A DNA stretch of 25,996 nt, taken from IMG/VR virus record IMGVR_UViG_3300021964_000449, positions 1 through 25,996 of that record; one strand, written 5' to 3'. The number at the start of each line of letters is the position of its first letter. Positions within the stretch are counted from its first letter, which is position 1. The notes beneath the pieces were generated by a model, which was given only the letters and a program-made list of their open reading frames with translations, was not told the origin of the DNA and searched no databases. Positions 1 to 19,763 of this stretch are shown here, piece after piece. Position numbers and translations under genes: made by a program. This DNA comes from a virus.

Positions 1-1
1 T

Positions 2-145
2 ACCATTATGGTAGGTAAGTTTAAAAACAAAAGAGTAACCGTGGAGTCAATCGAATACGATGAGTTTGGAATGCCTATCATTAACGGAAGTCCAGCATGT
101 ACATTCAGAATGGTTCCTAAACCGAGAAAAGATGATGAGAAATAA
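2..145 (+). CDS. C-terminal fragment of an unknown protein (5' end outside window)
   Basis: An open frame runs from the first bases to a TAA at 143-145 and gives about 47 residues. An ATG at 8-10 could be a start, but no ribosome-binding site can be seen because the window begins there, so I treat it as the tail of a gene that starts upstream. The visible end is basic (KPRKDDEK) and follows a beta-like stretch (VTVESIEYDEFGMPIINGS). It overlaps the next gene by 14 bases, the tight packing seen throughout the window. I do not recognise the family. Confidence 0.5.
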   Translation, partial: TIMVGKFKNKRVTVESIEYDEFGMPIINGSPACTFRMVPKPRKDDEK

Positions 146-509
146 TTTGACTACAGAGCAAAGTTTTATATGGGTGACATTTCAGAAAGAAGGCATCCAC
201 AAATATCCCGCCGCACTAGAAGACCCTAAGCTAGCAGATGTTAGTTTTCTAGGGTATCCGCACAGACACATATTCCATTTCAGAGTAGAACTGGAAGTGT
301 TCCACGACGATAGAGATGTTGAGTTCATCCTATTCAAAAGAGAGTTAGAGTCTCTCTACAACGAAAACACATTGCAATTAGATTACAAATCATGCGAGAT
401 GATAGCTGAAGATTTAGCTAAATACATACAAGACAAGTATCCTGGCAGAGGTCTCGCTATAGAAGTTTCAGAAGACAACGAGAACGGGTGCAGGTTAATA
501 TGGAATTAG
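132..509 (+). CDS. QueD/6-pyruvoyltetrahydropterin synthase (T-fold)-like small phage protein
   Basis: A 125-residue protein of a type I associate with T4-like marine phages, usually annotated hypothetical. The frame is open from further upstream; I start at ATG 132 (ATG 135 is equally possible) because residues before it would lie inside the preceding gene. The order of motifs resembles QueD/PTPS: His23 in GIH, then an HxH pair (His44, His46), a hydrophobic strand, a DxDVEF/FKREL segment like the 'DFxxLK' region, SCEMIAEDLAKYI like 'PTSExLAxWI', and a terminal SEDNENGC like 'ETxxAG' carrying Glu114. In QueD a catalytic Cys lies four residues before the HxH; here Leu40 is in that place, so classic QueD chemistry is doubtful. 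Two genes downstream is a TGT-like enzyme, which fits 7-deazapurine-type chemistry. The fold assignment is my inference. Confidence 0.55.
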   Translation: MMRNNLTTEQSFIWVTFQKEGIHKYPAALEDPKLADVSFLGYPHRHIFHFRVELEVFHDDRDVEFILFKRELESLYNENTLQLDYKSCEMIAEDLAKYIQDKYPGRGLAIEVSEDNENGCRLIWN

Positions 510-510
510 T

Positions 511-777
511 ATGCAAAAATTTTCCGATTTCTTGGAACAAGAACAACTTAAACCGAACACTATTGTATGTAGAGGAAACGCCTCAGGCAATCAATGGGAA
601 GTGAAGTCCTGTGGCAAAAATGCTATGGGGTTTTTGAGACCAGGTACTAATCTAACTAACGATCAGATTGAAGACCTAAAAAATAAAAAGTGGGACGTCA
701 GATATGCTGACGAGATAACACCTAAGAGCGATGGACCTACATCGTCAGGTAAAGCTGGAGTGCCACAGAAAGATTAA
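511..777 (+). CDS. hypothetical protein, 88 aa
   Basis: An 88-residue soluble protein that begins one base after the stop of the preceding gene (TAG T ATG), so it is probably translated by coupling; no separate Shine-Dalgarno is obvious. It opens with an amphipathic helix (QKFSDFLEQEQL), has a central beta-rich part with two cysteines (IVCRGNASGNQWEVKSCGKN), and ends in a flexible Ser/Gly/Lys/Pro tail. The CRG...SCG spacing could bind metal but only two cysteines are present. No recognisable family. Its position between the QueD-like and TGT-like genes is the only functional hint. Confidence 0.6.
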   Translation: MQKFSDFLEQEQLKPNTIVCRGNASGNQWEVKSCGKNAMGFLRPGTNLTNDQIEDLKNKKWDVRYADEITPKSDGPTSSGKAGVPQKD

Positions 778-800
778 TTATATCATGGAGAAATTATATT

Positions 801-1670
801 ATGAGATTTTGTCATATTGCACCTAACAAACTGCTAGATAAAGTAATCACAACTAATCGTACAGCACACCTTACATTAGCACACATCATCGAAGAGGGCA
901 ATCAAGAATACATTGACTTCTATCTCGGTGAACAAAAAGAAGCAGAAACAATGGGGACACCGTTCCTCAACATTATGGACAATAGTGCATTTGAGTTGTA
1001 CAAAGCTCAGTTGCCTATGTTTGATCCAGAAAAGCTAGTAGAGCTTGCAAAAAAAGTTAACGCTACTCATATTGTATTACCAGATCATCCAAGCATGCCT
1101 TCTATGGTAGGGATTGATGATGCTAAAAGATACGCGCCAGTGTTTAAAGAAAATGGCTTTGGTACTTTCTTTGTGCCTCAGAGTGACGTTGGTGACTTAG
1201 AAGATTTAATTACTTCATTTGCATGGGCAGCATCAAGTCCTCTTATTGATTATATTGGTATTAGTATTCTTGCTGTACCTAATGCATATAGATGTGAAGT
1301 AGGAAACAAACTACAAAGATTTAACTCTCGATGGAAATTCATGAATGAGCTCTATGATAGAAACCTGTTACAACTTGCTAAAGCAAATGGTAAGAAAATT
1401 CACTTCCTTGGAATGGTTGACGGTCCAAATGAAATTTCACTACTTCGTAATTTTAGTATTGACACTTGGGATTCTAGTGCTGGAGTTTGGGCTGGACTAA
1501 ACGGAATTGAGTTTGATGGATCCCCAACAGGACTTTTCGAGGGTAAGTTTGAGAAGCACGTTGACTTTAACTTCGATACAGAAGATGATAACCTCATTGA
1601 TTGTGCAAGACGTAACGTTGCATATATTGACAATCTAGTTGAAAGATTCAATGCAAGTGAAAAATTATGA
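801..1670 (+). CDS. tRNA-guanine transglycosylase-like (phage DpdA-type) base-exchange enzyme
   Basis: A 289-residue protein with the landmarks of the TGT TIM-barrel superfamily, shorter than bacterial TGT (about 370 aa). MDNSAFEL (Asp60) matches the substrate-binding DSGGF segment; ATHIVLPD (Asp95) is a barrel strand ending in Asp; FLGMVDGPNEI (around 202-212) matches the 'YLMGVGxPEDL' strand; SIDTWDSS (around 219-226) matches the 'GxDMFD' segment and places the likely nucleophile at Asp224. The four-Cys zinc site of tRNA TGT is absent, as in shortened phage relatives. Known DpdA enzymes swap guanine for a 7-deazaguanine in DNA; whether this one acts on DNA, tRNA or another substrate is inference. 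GGAG at 787-790 with AAATTATATT before ATG sets the start. It overlaps the next gene by 4 bases. Confidence 0.7.
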   Translation: MRFCHIAPNKLLDKVITTNRTAHLTLAHIIEEGNQEYIDFYLGEQKEAETMGTPFLNIMDNSAFELYKAQLPMFDPEKLVELAKKVNATHIVLPDHPSMPSMVGIDDAKRYAPVFKENGFGTFFVPQSDVGDLEDLITSFAWAASSPLIDYIGISILAVPNAYRCEVGNKLQRFNSRWKFMNELYDRNLLQLAKANGKKIHFLGMVDGPNEISLLRNFSIDTWDSSAGVWAGLNGIEFDGSPTGLFEGKFEKHVDFNFDTEDDNLIDCARRNVAYIDNLVERFNASEKL

Positions 1671-1954
1671 AGTATAGATTTGACGAAGATAAGATACTAG
1701 CAGAAGTAGGTAAGTACATTGAATCTACTTATTCTGCTCATTATGTTAATGAGAAGGCTGGTACTAAGGACGAAGAAATCCAAACGATTGATGTTTGGAA
1801 ACAGATGGGACAAGAGAAAGAAGCCTGTCATTCAAATATTATTAAGTACGCTATGAGGTATGGTAAGAAGGATGGTTATAATAAAAAAGACCTAATGAAG
1901 ATCATTCATTATACTATTCTGTTGTGGCACTTTACACAGGAGAAAACAAAATGA
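1667..1954 (+). CDS. DUF3310-like small protein
   Basis: A 95-residue protein overlapping the TGT-like gene by an ATGA junction at its start. The core reads HYVN..., then IDVWKQMGQEKEACHSNIIKYAMRYG, then KKDLMKIIHYTILL. This matches the DUF3310 layout, where 'PIDVI...NAIKYIxRxG' is followed by 'DLxKAxWYL'. DUF3310 proteins are common in phages and are often annotated as nucleotide-kinase-like or unknown; no catalytic residues are established that I can rely on. Its neighbour encodes a dUTPase/dCTP-deaminase-like enzyme, so a role in nucleotide pools is plausible. The TGA lies inside the ATGA that begins the next gene. Confidence 0.6.
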   Translation: MKYRFDEDKILAEVGKYIESTYSAHYVNEKAGTKDEEIQTIDVWKQMGQEKEACHSNIIKYAMRYGKKDGYNKKDLMKIIHYTILLWHFTQEKTK

Positions 1955-2454
1955 GTATGAGGCATATACTGTCTAAATGGGTTTCTAGTGAGCCTCTTTT
2001 GACTAACGTACAAGAAGGAGACAGCCAACCTAATGCTGTCGACTTGAGAGTAGATAAGATATTCAGACTAGAAGATAAACAGTTTGAGATATCTGAAAAC
2101 ACAAAGAAGCATAGAGGATCTTGGGAAGTAGAAGCACATGATGGATATTTTTACTTAGAGCCAGGAACGTATGAAATCCTAATGGAGAATATTGTAAAGA
2201 TTCCAGAAGGGTATGCAGGATGGGTGATCACTAGATCGACCCTTAACAGAAATGGTCTCTTCATTACTAGTGGTCTATACGATTCAGGCTACCATGGAGT
2301 AATGGCTGGTGCACTTCACGTCGAAGGTGGCCCAGCTAAGATTGAGAAAGGTACGAGAGTAGCACAGTTCTTAATGTTTGAAGCAGAGACACTATCAATG
2401 TATGATGGTGATTACGGACTCGGAAAGGAGCACGATAAGAAGTATGGAAATTAA
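1951..2454 (+). CDS. dUTPase / dCTP deaminase superfamily protein
   Basis: A 167-residue protein with dUTPase/dCTP-deaminase trimer-fold motifs in order: AVDLRVDKIF (motif 1), GWVITRSTLNRNGL (motif 2, RSS-like), SGLYDSGYHGVMAGAL (motif 3), KGTRVAQFLMF (motif 4), and a C-terminal YDGDYGLGKEHDKKYG that stands in for the flexible glycine-rich motif 5. The family removes dUTP or makes dUMP/dUTP from dCTP, which feeds thymidylate synthesis and keeps uracil out of phage DNA; I cannot tell the two activities apart by eye. I start at ATG 1951, in an ATGA overlap with the previous stop and behind GGAG at 1939-1942, not at the in-frame upstream ATG inside the previous gene. It overlaps the glycosyltransferase by 11 bases. 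Confidence 0.75.
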   Translation: MSMRHILSKWVSSEPLLTNVQEGDSQPNAVDLRVDKIFRLEDKQFEISENTKKHRGSWEVEAHDGYFYLEPGTYEILMENIVKIPEGYAGWVITRSTLNRNGLFITSGLYDSGYHGVMAGALHVEGGPAKIEKGTRVAQFLMFEAETLSMYDGDYGLGKEHDKKYGN

Positions 2455-3424
2455 TATTAAAATAGAAGAGTTGCAAAAACGTTCGTTGTTTATTGCAACA
2501 CCAATGTATGGTGGACAATGCGCAGGTATGTTCACTAAATCAAGTAATGACTTATCTGCACTTTGTATGCATTACAAAATTCCTGCTAAGTTTTACTATT
2601 TGTTCAATGAGAGTTTGATTACTCGTGCACGTAACTATTGCGTTGATGAGTTCTTAAGGTCTGACGCAACACACATGATCTTTATTGATAGTGACATAGC
2701 ATTCAATCCTAATGATATTATTACTATGTTAGCAATGATGGATCATGAAGACCCTGAGTGTCCATATGACATCTTATGTGGTCCGTACCCTAAAAAGTGT
2801 ATTTCATGGGAAAAGATTACTCATGCAGTTAACCAAGGTGTTGCTGATGATGATCCAGAGATCCTTTCTAAGTTTGTTGGAGATTATGTATTTAATCCTG
2901 CAGAAGGTGGAAATGAGATTAAAATTAGTGAACCTGCTGAAGTGTTAGAAGGTGGTACTGGTTTCATGATGTTCAAGAAGTCTACATTGCAAAAGTTTGC
3001 AGATGCGTATCCTAATATGCTCTACAAGCCTGATCATGTAAGAACTCAACACTTTGATGGATCAAGAGAGATTACAGCATTCTTTGATGCAGTAATTGAT
3101 GATAAGCAACTTAATGTTACTAATGAACTGGAAGCATTTTACAAAGAGAATGCAGAAGCTACGCCTGAGCAGGTTATAGAGTTTGTTAAAGACAAGACTA
3201 CATCTGCTATTGAAGGTAAGAGATACTCTAATCGATACTTGTCTGAAGACTATATGTTCTGTCAGTGGGCAAGAAACATTGGTATTAAAGTATGGTTGTG
3301 TCCTTGGATGGAACTTCAACACATGGGTTCTTTTGTATTCGGTGGATCGTTGAAAGACTTAGCGTCCATTGGAGCTCCAGCAACTGCTGATCCTGGAAAG
3401 GTAGGCAAGAACAAAGCAATGTAG
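2444..3424 (+). CDS. GT-A fold glycosyltransferase (family 2-like)
   Basis: A 326-residue protein. The N-terminal part begins LFIATPMYGGQCAGMF, continues with NESLITRARNYCVDEFL, then HMIFIDSDIAFNPNDI, where Asp82-Ser-Asp84 is the metal/nucleotide-sugar-binding DxD of GT-A enzymes. A later GGTGFMMFKKS loop and the C-terminal CPWMELQHMGSF (His) match the acceptor and metal-ligand parts of this family. I start at ATG 2444 with AAAGGAG at 2424-2430, not at an earlier in-frame ATG inside the preceding gene. Such genes are frequent in T4-like marine phages; the acceptor could be modified phage DNA, a virion protein or host surface glycan, and the sequence does not decide. The residues between about 190 and 260 are Glu-rich and poorly conserved-looking. 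Confidence 0.75.
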   Translation: MEINIKIEELQKRSLFIATPMYGGQCAGMFTKSSNDLSALCMHYKIPAKFYYLFNESLITRARNYCVDEFLRSDATHMIFIDSDIAFNPNDIITMLAMMDHEDPECPYDILCGPYPKKCISWEKITHAVNQGVADDDPEILSKFVGDYVFNPAEGGNEIKISEPAEVLEGGTGFMMFKKSTLQKFADAYPNMLYKPDHVRTQHFDGSREITAFFDAVIDDKQLNVTNELEAFYKENAEATPEQVIEFVKDKTTSAIEGKRYSNRYLSEDYMFCQWARNIGIKVWLCPWMELQHMGSFVFGGSLKDLASIGAPATADPGKVGKNKAM

Positions 3425-13332: not shown

Positions 13333-15060
13333 ATGTGTAGCGTTGAAGGCTTTACTGGTAAGCATGATTTTACCATTGAACAATTTACAAAATTTAATAA
13401 ATGCAGAGGACCTGATGATACAACGTATTTTCAAGATTCGTTATTATCATTAGGGCACAATCTACTGTCGATATCACCAAATTCTACTCCAAAACGACAG
13501 CCCTGGATATGTCCAGGAGGAGAAATTCTTACATGGAACGGTGAGATTTTTGGACTAGAAAATAATCAATTTGATACAGAAGTATTTGGTGAAATTATAT
13601 CCAAGCACTCTATTGCTAAAATGAAGCATAATATTAATTGGATGGGTGCAGGAGTTATATACGACCCAGAAAAGTATCGTCTTACATTGTTTAGAGACCA
13701 TTTTGGAATTAAACCTTTATACTTCGTTGAGTATCAACAAAATATTTTCTTTTCTTCAACAGCAAGACCGCTATATGCAGTACTTCAAAGTAAAGGAATT
13801 CCGATTGAAAAGGATAAAAATCACTTTAGATCGTTTCAATCTAATGACAGACATATGTTTGGGATGTATACGCCCGTAAATCGCATTCAAAGATTGGCGC
13901 CAGGTCAAGTATTGTTATGGGATATTAGAGAAGGTAAATTTGATGGAGAAGACAATCTCTGGGGACAAGATCCTAAAAAATGGAATCTTCGTATGAATAT
14001 GAATTGGATCCCTGAGAGACTGGAAGATAAGTTTGTAAAAGGAATAACAGAAGTATGTAATGCGCCTGGAATAAAAAAAACTATTTCGTTAAGTGGCGGT
14101 TTGGATAGTACGTTGATAGCATCAATTGCAAAAGATTTAGATAATATAGACGTTCAGACAGTTAAATATGAAAACTTTACTCCTGAACAAGATGAAACAA
14201 TCAATGACAATATGTTCTTTGAGTGGGACCTTGCTAAAAAGACAGCAAATAAATTTAAACTTCCATTTCACACAACCAAGTATCCATACGATAATAACAA
14301 GATAATCAAGTATGGGCAATTTGCACTGTCTATTCCTCAGTGGGACAGAAATAGATGGACAACAAGATTTGCAAACATAAAAGCTGCTTCAGATAGAGGA
14401 TCCAAAATATATATTGTTGGAGATGGTGCTGATGAACTATTGACTGGATACAACGGTGATTATGATTACTTTGAGGAAAGAAAAAGACCAAAGATGAGTA
14501 AGCAAATAATCGATGCATATGCTAACAATGATTTTAAATGGTGGCACCTTAAAAGAGTTACACCGTGGTGGTTGTTTGGCGATGATTTAATTAACAATCG
14601 TTTGTTTACTAGATTGTTCCAGCATGTTGATTCTTTCTGTACGACCGTAGATCATATGTGTGGTAATTTTGGAATGGAAAGTAGAGTGCCATTTTTACAC
14701 CAAGAGCTTGCCAAATATTTGTTAAAAATACCAGCGGTTGATAAGCTCCATGTTCCGTTTAGTTATAGTGAGAATGATAGACATATGTACAAAGGTCATT
14801 ATAAAATAATGATACGTGATTACATGAAACAATACATTCCCCTCCATATTCGTAAAAGAGATAGCAAGATAGGATTCTCTACTCCATGGAATGCAAGGGA
14901 CGATAAAAGAAATCAAGCCTTAGCAAAAGAGGATTGGAGATTATTACAGTTACAAGCAGAGAAGTTTTTTAACTTTGATGTTGATTTTAAAAATGAATGG
15001 GACGATAATAGCGAATCAATTAATGACAGTAATATTACTGTAGACCTAAGCGGAGATTAG
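13333..15060 (+). CDS. asnB: asparagine synthetase, glutamine-hydrolysing (AsnB-like)
   Basis: A 575-residue two-domain enzyme. Met-Cys2 opens the class II glutamine amidotransferase domain (MCSVEGFTG; Cys2 is the nucleophile after Met removal), followed by CRGPDDTTY, WNGEIFG and FRDHFGIKPLYF. The synthetase domain has the PP-loop LSGGLDSTLIAS near residue 252, IVGDGADELLTGY, and GMESRVPFLHQELAKYLL. It would make asparagine (or amidate a related carboxylate) from glutamine with ATP. Start is fixed by the Cys2 rule and AAGGA at 13323-13327. Relatives occur in marine phages and in glycan clusters, so the acceptor may not be free aspartate. Domain order and catalytic residues look intact. Confidence 0.9.
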   Translation: MCSVEGFTGKHDFTIEQFTKFNKCRGPDDTTYFQDSLLSLGHNLLSISPNSTPKRQPWICPGGEILTWNGEIFGLENNQFDTEVFGEIISKHSIAKMKHNINWMGAGVIYDPEKYRLTLFRDHFGIKPLYFVEYQQNIFFSSTARPLYAVLQSKGIPIEKDKNHFRSFQSNDRHMFGMYTPVNRIQRLAPGQVLLWDIREGKFDGEDNLWGQDPKKWNLRMNMNWIPERLEDKFVKGITEVCNAPGIKKTISLSGGLDSTLIASIAKDLDNIDVQTVKYENFTPEQDETINDNMFFEWDLAKKTANKFKLPFHTTKYPYDNNKIIKYGQFALSIPQWDRNRWTTRFANIKAASDRGSKIYIVGDGADELLTGYNGDYDYFEERKRPKMSKQIIDAYANNDFKWWHLKRVTPWWLFGDDLINNRLFTRLFQHVDSFCTTVDHMCGNFGMESRVPFLHQELAKYLLKIPAVDKLHVPFSYSENDRHMYKGHYKIMIRDYMKQYIPLHIRKRDSKIGFSTPWNARDDKRNQALAKEDWRLLQLQAEKFFNFDVDFKNEWDDNSESINDSNITVDLSGD

Positions 15061-16126: not shown

Positions 16127-16226
16127 AATAGCAGCTGGATTTGCATTAATCGTTCACAACTTTCTTATTGCAGGCGTACTATTCATAGTCGCTGAAGCAT
16201 TAGGTATCCTTGAAGAGCTTGTATGA
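16071..16226 (+). CDS. 51-residue single-pass membrane protein between uvsX and the 2OG oxygenase
   Basis: A short frame from ATG 16071, behind CAGGAG (16055-16060), to TGA 16224-16226. It begins inside the end of uvsX in another frame. The start MVPDPKWHLRISLVKSLLRI is basic and amphipathic, then AAGFALIVHNFLIAGVLFIVAEALGIL is one membrane helix. It explains the 96-base gap between uvsX and the oxygenase gene and ends in an ATGA overlap with it. I recall similar small proteins after uvsX in marine T4-like phages. In T4 the membrane protein gp40 lies between uvsX and 41; this is a positional likeness, not shown homology. Confidence 0.75.
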   Translation: MVPDPKWHLRISLVKSLLRIAAGFALIVHNFLIAGVLFIVAEALGILEELV

Positions 16227-16813
16227 GTATATCAGATATTAAACACAGGGGTCTTTTTAGAGTAGATGTATTACGAATAGTATTAGATTTGCCTCACAAA
16301 GAGATCTCTGAGTATCTTATTGAAGATAGCAAAGATTGGGAAAGGTATACAACATACCATGATGCTAAATTAAATAAAAAAGTGCTTGAAGGTATGCCTG
16401 GATATCAAGATATGATTAATGATATCACAAAAGCATCGCACGAATTTGTTAAGAGAACCAAACGTAAACCATTCATAGACGATGATGACGTATTCATATC
16501 TACATGGGTAAGTATCTATGATGAACACGATCAACATGGTTCACATTTTCATCCTAAGTCTCTTATAGCTGGAACATACTATCCACAGACAAGTTCAGAA
16601 AGTTCTGCCATTACTTTAGAATCTCCGTGGACTAATTTTACAAGTCATGATACAATACCATTTCAAGAGATGTTGTTTGACTATAAACCTAATCCTGGCG
16701 ATATGTTATTATGGCCAGCGTGGTTGAACCATAGAGTGTCACCACAAAAGAAATCAGATACAAAAAGAATAGCAATTTCATTTAACATAGATTACCAGAG
16801 ATATCATCAATGA
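16223..16813 (+). CDS. 2-oxoglutarate/Fe(II)-dependent oxygenase
   Basis: A 196-residue protein of the putative 2OG-Fe(II) oxygenase type (TIGR02466/2OG-FeII_Oxy_5-like). The core HGSHFHPKSLIAGTYYPQT matches the family 'HxHPxxxxSGVYYL' with His108/His110; ITLESPW follows; PGDMLLWPAWLNHRVSP supplies the distal His170, and KRIAISFNI supplies the 2-oxoglutarate-binding Arg182. The family hydroxylates unknown substrates; relatives are very common in marine T4-like phages. It is coupled by ATGA overlaps to the small membrane protein before it and to gp41 after it. I cannot tell protein, DNA-base and metabolite hydroxylation apart. Confidence 0.85.
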   Translation: MSISDIKHRGLFRVDVLRIVLDLPHKEISEYLIEDSKDWERYTTYHDAKLNKKVLEGMPGYQDMINDITKASHEFVKRTKRKPFIDDDDVFISTWVSIYDEHDQHGSHFHPKSLIAGTYYPQTSSESSAITLESPWTNFTSHDTIPFQEMLFDYKPNPGDMLLWPAWLNHRVSPQKKSDTKRIAISFNIDYQRYHQ

Positions 16814-18168
16814 TTGAGAAACAGATACTAGCAGGACTTATTAATGACGAACAATATACTCGTCAAGTTCTTCCGTTCTTAAAAGAACATTATTTTGGTC
16901 AAATAGATCAAAAGCTAGTATTCAAGATTATTACTCAATACTTTGAGAAGTACAATGCACTACCTAAGAGAGAAGCACTCTCAATTGAGATAGAACAAGT
17001 AGCAGGGGTAGATGATAAAACTATACAAAGTGCATTACAGACTGTTAATGAATTACCTACGACGGATGTCGATGAATGGCTAGTTGATCAAACAGAGACT
17101 TTTTGTCAAGATAAAGCAATCTACAATGCAATCATGTCTGGCATTGAGATCATAGAAAAGACCCCTGATAATAAAGGACAACTTCCTGGGTTATTGCAAG
17201 AAGCATTGCAAGTGAGTTTTGATAACAGCATTGGTCACGATTTTATTGATGACGCTGATAGACGATATGAGTTCTATCATCAAGAAGAAACTAGAGTTCC
17301 TTTTGACCTAGATATGATGAACAAAATTACTAAAGGTGGATTACCAACAAAAACGCTTAATATTATCCTAGCAGGTACTGGCGTAGGTAAGTCATTGTTC
17401 ATGTGCCATTGTGCAGCAGCTAACATTACAGAAGGCAAGAATGTATTATACATTACAATGGAGATGGCAGAAGAAAGAATTGCTGAAAGAATTGACGCTA
17501 ATTTATTAGACGTAACTATGGAAGACCTCAATGTGTTACCTAAGTCAGCCTACGATAAGAAAATGGCAAGACTAAAAGAAAGGTGTACAGGTAAATTAGT
17601 AATTAAAGAATACCCAACAGCAAGTGCAAATGCTAATCACTTTAGACATCTAATTCAAGAACTAAGAACAAAAAAGAACTTTAAACCAGATGTAATATAT
17701 ATTGACTACCTCAACATATGTGCATCGTTTAGAATTAGAGGAGGCGCAAATGCAGGATCGTATGCCATTGTCAAAGCGATTGCAGAAGAATTACGAGGAC
17801 TGGCTGTGGAATGCAACGTGCCAATCATCAGTGCGACACAAACCAATAGACAAGGGTTCTCAAGCTCTGATATTGGTTTGGAAGATACGTCGGAGTCTTT
17901 CGGTCTACCGGCAACAGCTGACTTCATGGTGGCACTCTCGCAAACAGAAGAACTCGAACGATTAAACCAATACATGATCAAGCAGCTTAAGAATAGATTT
18001 GCTGATCCAGCTTTTCATAGAAAGTTTGTTGTTGGCGTAGATAAGTCTCGTATGAGAATTTATGATGTAGAGCAGAGTGCTCAGAAAGAAATTATTGATG
18101 ATACGCCTTTATTTGATAGAAGCGAGTCGTCAAAGAACTTAAAAAACATATTTGACGATTTTAAATGA
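16810..18168 (+). CDS. 41: replicative DNA helicase, gp41/DnaB-like
   Basis: A 452-residue DnaB-family helicase (T4 gp41 475 aa). The N-terminal helical domain covers about 1-135; the RecA-like motor has Walker A LAGTGVGKSLFM (188-199), the YITMEMAEERIAERIDANLL helix, Walker B DVIYIDYLNICAS, the VPIISATQTNR motif and an arginine-bearing VGVDKSRMR end. It is the hexameric 5'-3' helicase that moves on the lagging strand with the primase. It overlaps the oxygenase gene and the carbamoyltransferase gene by ATGA at each end, so the three are likely made in step. Confidence 0.95.
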   Translation: MIEKQILAGLINDEQYTRQVLPFLKEHYFGQIDQKLVFKIITQYFEKYNALPKREALSIEIEQVAGVDDKTIQSALQTVNELPTTDVDEWLVDQTETFCQDKAIYNAIMSGIEIIEKTPDNKGQLPGLLQEALQVSFDNSIGHDFIDDADRRYEFYHQEETRVPFDLDMMNKITKGGLPTKTLNIILAGTGVGKSLFMCHCAAANITEGKNVLYITMEMAEERIAERIDANLLDVTMEDLNVLPKSAYDKKMARLKERCTGKLVIKEYPTASANANHFRHLIQELRTKKNFKPDVIYIDYLNICASFRIRGGANAGSYAIVKAIAEELRGLAVECNVPIISATQTNRQGFSSSDIGLEDTSESFGLPATADFMVALSQTEELERLNQYMIKQLKNRFADPAFHRKFVVGVDKSRMRIYDVEQSAQKEIIDDTPLFDRSESSKNLKNIFDDFK

Positions 18169-19763
18169 ACATATTAACAACATACCTAGGACACGAATCT
18201 AACATAGTAACTTACATAGATGGTAAGATTACTATCTTTGAGCTAGATAAACTTGTAGGTGAAAAATGGACAAAAGTAGCTACTAAACCTGTAGTAGAAA
18301 TTTGTAATATATTTGAACAGGTGTTTGATATTATTGGCACTAATTCATTTGATCTTTGGGTTAATGGATCCATCGGTGATGAAGGTGCAGGTAATGGAGA
18401 CGTATGGGCTACTAAATTCAAAAAAATCATTGATTACAAGAGACATATTAACGGCCCTGGACACCACTTATGTCACGGTTACAGTTCTTTTTATCAATCT
18501 CCGTTTGAAAAAGCATTTATTATCTCTAGTGACGGTGGAGGTAATGATGGCGTATTTAATATGTACAGAGCAGATAGACAAAATGGCCTTCAATTATTTC
18601 AGCGAATAGATAGGTTTGATCTTGGAACAATCTATGGTCTGTTAGGATGTTCAAGTAAAGAGATTACTGATACTACTGGACATTATTTAGATGTAGCAGG
18701 TAAAGCAATGGCATTGGCCAGCGTAGGTCATGATCGTAGTAGAGATGTAAAGTTAAGAAATTTTATTCAAGACATATACACCGGACAGACGTTTGGTCAT
18801 TTTAATGAATATGTTGGTTTAAAAAAAGGGACGCACAACGTTAATGTTGCTGTAGGCAATCATGTAAAAGCTAAATTCCAGTCTTTAGAAGATAACAGTT
18901 TATCAAGACAAATCTGTGAAATAAATCAGACGCAACTTGAAAATAAGTTTTATTCAATAGTCAATGACAGATCGTATGAAATATTTTCTCGATACGATGG
19001 TAATCTAGTTCTTACTGGCGGTGTTGCAATGAACGTCGTGAACAATCAAAAACTAAGAGATAAGCAAGGTGTTGATTTATTCGTTCCATGTAATCCTAGT
19101 GATAGAGGTCTTGCGTTAGGACTATTGTATTGGTATCTACATTTGACTGGCATGGAAATTCCTAGAGGTTCACAACACTATGCAGGACCTCCATTGATAG
19201 GTGATGGTCCTATTGATCCATCTAAAAGAAAGACATCAATCAAAACAATTGCAAACATGCTTAAAAAAGGTGCTATCCTTGGAGTAGCAGAAGGCAATGG
19301 TGAAATAGGAATGAGAGCTTTAGGTAGACGATCAATCATTTGTGATCCAAGCATTCCTGGAATGAAAGACAAAATCAATGCTGAGGTCAAAGGAAGAGAA
19401 TGGTTTAGACCATTTGCACCGATAATATTAGAAGAACACTTAGATGGATTCCAGTCATCCTCATTTGATAACTTAGAATATATGGCTTATGCTGTTCCAG
19501 TAACAGATGAGTTTGCTGAGAAGTATCCTGCTGTATGTCATGTGGACAATACAGCCAGAGTTCAATTGTGCAATGATGAAAATAGCACAGTATACAAAAT
19601 TATGAAAGAATTAGGAACACCATTGCTAAACACCTCTTTCAATATTCAAGGGCAACCTATAATTGCTCGAGAATCAGAGGCATTTGATATGTTAAACAGT
19701 GGCGTCTTAGACGGCATTGTCGTGAATGGTGTCCTATATAAAAAACCCAAAAGTGATAAATAA
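18165..19763 (+). CDS. carbamoyltransferase (NodU/CmcH/TobZ family)
   Basis: A 532-residue protein. The N-terminal Kae1-like domain shows YLGHESNIVTYIDGKI, the metal-binding histidines GPGHHLCHGYSSFY (His100, His101, His104), ISSDGGGNDG, LTGGVAMNVVNNQKL and NPSDRGLALG. The C-terminal YrdC-like domain shows EGNGEIGMRALGRRSII, KGREWFRPFAPIILEE and TPLLNTSFNIQGQPI. The family moves a carbamoyl group from carbamoyl phosphate, with ATP, to a hydroxyl. Acceptors include antibiotic and Nod-factor sugars, and in some phages hydroxymethylcytosine in DNA has been reported. The overlap with gp41 and nearby oxygenase suggests DNA, while the sugar genes elsewhere suggest glycans; both stay open. Its end overlaps a late-type promoter. 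Confidence 0.93.
   Translation: MNILTTYLGHESNIVTYIDGKITIFELDKLVGEKWTKVATKPVVEICNIFEQVFDIIGTNSFDLWVNGSIGDEGAGNGDVWATKFKKIIDYKRHINGPGHHLCHGYSSFYQSPFEKAFIISSDGGGNDGVFNMYRADRQNGLQLFQRIDRFDLGTIYGLLGCSSKEITDTTGHYLDVAGKAMALASVGHDRSRDVKLRNFIQDIYTGQTFGHFNEYVGLKKGTHNVNVAVGNHVKAKFQSLEDNSLSRQICEINQTQLENKFYSIVNDRSYEIFSRYDGNLVLTGGVAMNVVNNQKLRDKQGVDLFVPCNPSDRGLALGLLYWYLHLTGMEIPRGSQHYAGPPLIGDGPIDPSKRKTSIKTIANMLKKGAILGVAEGNGEIGMRALGRRSIICDPSIPGMKDKINAEVKGREWFRPFAPIILEEHLDGFQSSSFDNLEYMAYAVPVTDEFAEKYPAVCHVDNTARVQLCNDENSTVYKIMKELGTPLLNTSFNIQGQPIIARESEAFDMLNSGVLDGIVVNGVLYKKPKSDK
19755..19762 (+). promoter_or_regulatory. late-type promoter (GATAAATA) for the structured RNA
   Basis: GATAAATA differs from the T4 late box TATAAATA by one base and lies on the last codons of the carbamoyltransferase. 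A late start 6-7 bases downstream would fall at about 19768-19769, exactly where the outer stem of the structured RNA begins (GTTCTTG). Confidence 0.45.

Follow-up and report, generated by a model that had tools for sequence, protein, structure and literature searches.

The window, the whole 26 kb stretch of DNA that was analysed, is a fragment of a virus genome. Upon inspection, we read it as part of a T4-like phage, from ORFs for a clamp, a clamp loader, a DNA polymerase, a RecA-like protein and a helicase. The gene under study is found at positions 801-1670, and its protein is referred to as P0001. The following features were assigned:

8..145, + strand, short ORF of 45 aa, flanked by FolE2 (outside the window) and by the QueD-like gene at 132-509, whose start it overlaps
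132..509, + strand, QueD-like T-fold protein (phrog_17812), 125 aa from the ATG at 132 (start at 60 in the mechanical ORF)
511..777, + strand, conserved protein of 88 aa; in 56 loci its gene immediately precedes that of the transglycosylase
801..1670, + strand, predicted DpdA-type DNA guanine transglycosylase, 289 aa, ATG start; equivalents of the TGT/DpdA active site are D60, D95, Q127, H201, G204 and D224
1667..1954, + strand, DUF3310 protein (PF11753, 1e-9); overlaps the stop codon of the transglycosylase gene
1951..2454, + strand, dCTP deaminase/dUTPase-like protein, a conserved downstream neighbour
2447..3424, + strand, glycosyltransferase-like protein (phrog_1574), with weak GT2/GT21/Anp1 matches; conserved 1.5-2.5 kb downstream
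13333-15060, asparagine-synthetase-like protein (GATase and ATP-pyrophosphatase)
16223-16813, 2OG-Fe(II) oxygenase
18165-19763, Nol-like carbamoyltransferase

The dCTP deaminase/dUTPase-like protein probably belongs to ordinary nucleotide metabolism. The last three genes lie among the replication genes and probably function in surface or metabolite modification.

P0001 has no sequence match in Pfam, PHROG, NCBIfam or PDB. IMG/VR and phage records yielded 136 distinct sequences of its gene, all with an intact reading frame, and we thus consider it a real gene. One alignment-based scan of IMG/VR returned 534 places that encode the family. In the collection searched, four phage records carry it: Rhizobium phage RHph_I1_18, Vibrio phages D479 and Bakedbeans, and Aeromonas phage Ahp1_CNU-2021. 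In RHph_I1_18 (L081:8001-9269), the transglycosylase and the DUF3310 protein are fused into one protein, while they are encoded by separate, adjacent genes in the window. A search of the literature outside subscription papers found no publication on this phage group.

An AlphaFold2 model of P0001, built on an alignment of 73 rows (A2), has a pLDDT of 95.5 and a pTM of 0.92. When it was compared to PDB with Foldseek, the top 41 matches were tRNA-guanine transglycosylases (TGTs; best E 5e-9). With VIA-align, all 50 matches listed are TGTs, the best one having a Z of 18.8 over 245 residues at 3.0-3.2 A. Further matches are DpdA, a bacterial enzyme that inserts preQ0 into DNA (7ui4; Foldseek, E 3.4e-5), and the BFVD model of DpdA2 from phage nt-1. 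P0001 thus has the TGT-type TIM barrel that characterizes DpdA. A preliminary description of this DNA, made from the sequence alone, had proposed a DpdA-type enzyme and had suggested structure prediction against TGT and DpdA as a check; TGTs are indeed the best matches, and the top match is not an unrelated TIM barrel.

The residues that had been pointed out as TGT landmarks, Asp60 in DNSAF and Asp224 in DTWD, are present and are invariant in A2 as well as in A3, which is A2 supplemented with remote DpdA-type proteins. D60, D95 and D224 are invariant and are aligned with the catalytic aspartates of E. coli TGT. H201 and G204 stay invariant after the addition of remote relatives. The counterpart of H201 in DpdA of phage 9g is, according to a low-scoring alignment, H196, a histidine that is conserved in DpdA and absent from DpdA2 (Hutinet et al., PMC6884629). 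The zinc-binding cysteines of tRNA TGT had been described as lacking, and the CxCxxC motif is found in none of 77 non-redundant family members.

A profile of the family retrieves the DpdA-type proteins of Campylobacter phage CP220 (9e-15; 1.5e-12) and Cellulophaga phage phiST (2e-17). DpdA1 (9g) and DpdA2 (nt-1) have no significant profile similarity to P0001 (hhalign probability 1.3% and 0.7%), and a profile search gave no match in the genomes of 9g, nt-1 and Dp-1. As judged from sequence comparison, the nearest named relatives of P0001 are thus the DpdA-type proteins of phiST and CP220, not DpdA1 or DpdA2. A more remote homolog, about 25% identical to P0001, is encoded in a contig binned as WWE3. 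In a phylogenetic tree, the P0001 family forms one group (support 97/99), apart from the CP220/immuto and the phiST/Bacillus proteins. The deep branches of this tree are long and their order is unsettled; a single clade of the P0001 family and phiST is not rejected (p-AU 0.19).

The TGT fold and the aspartates would also fit an enzyme acting on tRNA: P0001 might be a short tRNA-guanine transglycosylase and serve to increase the queuosine content of host tRNA in infected cells. We consider such a role quite improbable, given the lack of the zinc motif in the whole family, the DpdA-type relatives (one of them annotated as DNA guanine transglycosylase) and a linked pathway that is devoid of QueC (see below).

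Positions 1-3178 of the window are 100% identical to L086:9201-12378, and in this contig QueE, QueD and FolE2 are encoded upstream of the shared stretch. The transglycosylase from a further contig, L087, is 99% identical to P0001. In both contigs, the gene run consists of peptide deformylase, a QueE-like protein, a 2OG oxygenase, a QueD-like protein (PTPS, 2e-17), FolE2 (GCHY-1, 1e-58), a small ORF, the 125-aa protein, the 88-aa protein and the transglycosylase; family scans of the upstream genes were run on L087. The operon genes were counted in those 34 distinct loci for which 6 kb or more of upstream sequence is available; these loci come from related genomes and are not independent samples. 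FolE or FolE2 is encoded in 33 of these, QueE in 28 and QueD in 27, with all three being present together in 27 loci. The family is thereby linked to 7-deazaguanine synthesis genes, as is typical of DpdA. Also the remote WWE3 homolog is found amid such genes (FolE, QueD, QueE and QueC). The TGT fold supports the DpdA-type reading, and the lack of the zinc motif, H201, the profile match to CP220 and phiST, and the FolE/QueD/QueE operon speak for DNA rather than tRNA as the substrate. QueE is specific to deazapurine synthesis, and its occurrence in the same gene run in most loci speaks against a role of FolE/FolE2 and QueD in making pterins or folate, with the transglycosylase as a coincidental neighbour. 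We attribute almost negligible probability to such a role, even though FolE also serves folate synthesis (PMC6884629).

Several peculiarities of the operon were observed. FolE2 (GCHY-IB; L087:7851-8774) is encoded in about half of the loci, and FolE occupies the same operon place in the rest. The Radical SAM profile PF04055 misses most QueE copies, which were recovered by NCBIfam and seeded searches; the misses are probably due to an insert in the cluster loop. In ordinary QueE, two residues separate the second and third cysteine of this loop. In the QueE of this group (e.g., L087:5653-6588), 38 residues are found there in 49 of 59 copies with a readable motif, and in phiST QueE there are seven. 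QueD normally carries an HGH motif. This is HGY in 79 of 88 cases (L087:7388-7858 and most other QueD matches), so that one zinc histidine is replaced by tyrosine.

The canonical pathway proceeds from GTP via H2NTP, CPH4 and CDG to preQ0, catalyzed by FolE/FolE2, QueD, QueE and QueC (PMC6884629). According to the preliminary description, FolE, QueE and QueC, as the rest of the preQ0 pathway, are not encoded in the window; neither the ORF list nor family scans revealed any of them there. A search beyond the window, which it had recommended, was successful for FolE/FolE2 and QueE, found upstream in the matching contig and in relatives, but not for QueC: the whole records of eight relatives (G001-G005, W01, W03 and W04) have no match to PF06508. 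With a QueD-like protein in the place of the missing QueC, the pathway encoded nearby is not the preQ0 pathway, and preQ0 is probably not the base that is inserted. Among the loci of the family, that of the remote WWE3 homolog is the only one with QueC nearby. G008 has a weak QueC match, located inside an asparagine-synthetase-like ORF. Vibrio phage D479 has an annotated QueC-like gene (L213:1208-2014), about 100 kb away and adjacent to nicotinamide phosphoribosyltransferase; this gene may encode an NAD-related ATP-pyrophosphatase and not QueC.

The asparagine-synthetase-like protein encoded at 13333-15060 was considered as a replacement for QueC that would amidate CDG to ADG. Its domain layout resembles that of Gat-QueC, and it has a match to the QueC-like phrog_1550 at 0.0086. 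The best NCBIfam match is, however, asparagine synthase, and such a gene occurs in only one of the 11 relatives' records searched. This candidate, very improbable in our view, was dropped.

The T-fold protein encoded at 132-509 is the better candidate. Its gene lies just upstream of the transglycosylase gene (134 of 154 copies are in the nearest 500-base bin), and it is distinct from the gene for the ordinary QueD of the operon. Pfam scans of the family gave no match. An AlphaFold2 model (pLDDT 92.9) best matches E. coli QueD and related 6-PTPS structures (Foldseek E 2.8e-6; VIA Z about 11-12). H23, H44 and H46 align with the zinc histidines of QueD. In place of the catalytic cysteine, the protein has a leucine (L40), and it does not conserve the Asp-His pair; it is therefore unlikely to be a QueD.

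The T-fold protein and QueC exclude each other with few exceptions. Of 17 whole records with the T-fold protein that were examined, 15 have no QueC match. The exceptions are phage X1, with a sub-threshold QueC trace, and D479, with the distant QueC-like gene mentioned above. The T-fold family occurs in G001-G005, W01-W04 and phiST. Outside this group, it is found in Paride, Phosso, ACP17, BUCT-ZZ01, X1, Roos and MA9V-3, none of which has QueC above the cut-off. Conversely, it is absent from the QueC-bearing 9g, nt-1, Dp-1, HVTV-1, CP220, immuto, BSP7, CC_R7 and Youna2, and from the WWE3 genome. In ACP17, X1 and BUCT-ZZ01, the T-fold gene adjoins a gene for DpdA2 (phrog_10773). Phage nt-1 has a DpdA2 that belongs to this PHROG as well, but it encodes QueC and no T-fold protein. 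In MA9V-3, the partner is a phiST-type protein. The neighbours in Paride and Roos have TGT-like motifs (DSGGF and HFLGL; DSGLF and HLLGC, respectively), as judged by motif reading only. A related GT4-like glycosyltransferase is encoded near the T-fold gene in Paride, Phosso, ACP17, X1 and BUCT-ZZ01 (L206-L210), and hypermodification of the base is possible.

The exclusion is in part phylogenetic, as one clade of the P0001 family and phiST is not rejected. For the same reason, we do not claim that the swap arose in phiST a second time and independently, an idea that had come from the tree. Independent support for the swap rests on the DpdA2-bearing phages.

Hosts may supply QueC. If they did, a DpdA-type enzyme could insert preQ0 or a derivative, and the T-fold protein would be functionally unrelated. 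Many bacteria carry QueC, as seen in the control genomes, and phages that possibly rely on host preQ0 synthesis have been discussed (PMC6884629). We nevertheless regard this as rather unlikely: QueE occurs systematically without QueC, and the same T-fold protein accompanies at least three DpdA lineages, which suggests a dedicated substitute.

We consider it probable that P0001 is a DpdA-type DNA guanine transglycosylase which uses CDG or a product of CDG, with the T-fold protein in place of QueC. The activity on DNA, the order of steps and the base that we infer from fold, residues and operon are as follows. FolE2 or FolE, encoded in the operon of the same virus group, would convert GTP to dihydroneopterin triphosphate, QueD would convert this to carboxytetrahydropterin, and QueE would form 7-carboxy-7-deazaguanine (CDG), where the chain would stop in the absence of QueC. 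The T-fold protein is read as acting on CDG because it is a QueD-related T-fold with a zinc site that is found where QueC is missing. It probably processes CDG; our first choice is removal of the carboxylate, yielding 7-deazaguanine, and our second choice is that it helps to deliver CDG itself as the inserted base. In P0001, D224, the equivalent of the TGT nucleophile, would attack C1' of deoxyguanosine in phage DNA. Guanine would leave and be replaced by a 7-deazaguanine base, which D60, D95 and Q127 would hold. The DNA of these viruses thus probably carries an unusual modified guanine. This may shield it against bacterial defences; protection from restriction is conceivable by analogy to work on other phages (PMC6884629).

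A standard pathway step seems to be replaced by a small protein in these viruses, and this T-fold protein is the probable branch point that sets which base enters DNA. An annotation can thereby be offered for phrog_17812, so far listed as having unknown function. With the 534 encoding places from one IMG/VR scan, a large unannotated DpdA group joins the known phage DNA 7-deazaguanine systems. The family shows that FolE2 is able to replace FolE in such systems. Distinctive features are the large DpdA group itself, which had not been placed before, its pathway without QueC, the presence of FolE2 in many members and the T-fold protein at the probable branch point. A 2023 study by Cui et al. reportedly found dDG and dCDG in the DNA of phages, predicted DpdL to be a CDG decarboxylase, and distinguished the subfamilies DpdA3 and DpdA4. 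This study may already describe the T-fold protein (as DpdL), and P0001 may belong to DpdA3; the name DpdL was not met in our search of the literature outside subscription papers. It is tempting to speculate, albeit tentatively, that this widespread group of T4-like phages and several unrelated phages, Paride and ACP17 among them, replace guanine by a CDG-derived base via an unrecognised, QueD-derived stand-in for QueC, which works with at least three DpdA lineages, and that linked glycosyltransferases may then glycosylate this base.

Among the known systems, bacterial TGT and archaeal ArcTGT have the fold and the catalytic aspartates in common with P0001. P0001 differs from tRNA TGT in lacking the zinc motif, in being shorter and in having H201 where E. 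coli TGT has a tyrosine. The T-fold protein shares with QueD (6-carboxytetrahydropterin synthase) the fold, the pattern of the three-histidine zinc site and a Glu near the C terminus, but does not keep its catalytic Cys and Asp-His pair. DpdA1 from 9g has aspartates and a histidine (H196) that align with P0001, but was not found by the P0001 profile, and 9g carries a QueC-domain protein. DpdA2 from nt-1 (phrog_10773) resembles P0001 in having a TGT fold and in being encoded by T4-like phages within a FolE/QueD cluster; it has, however, 464 aa and no profile match to P0001, and nt-1 keeps QueC. The DpdA-type proteins of phiST (phrog_20335) and CP220 (phrog_19058) are likewise short (258-259 aa) and have the same invariant D-N, D, H, G and D positions. 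They are only about 19-25% identical to P0001, whose family forms a separate, supported group. CP220 has QueC and lacks the T-fold protein, unlike the P0001 group, while phiST shares with this group both the T-fold protein and the absence of QueC.
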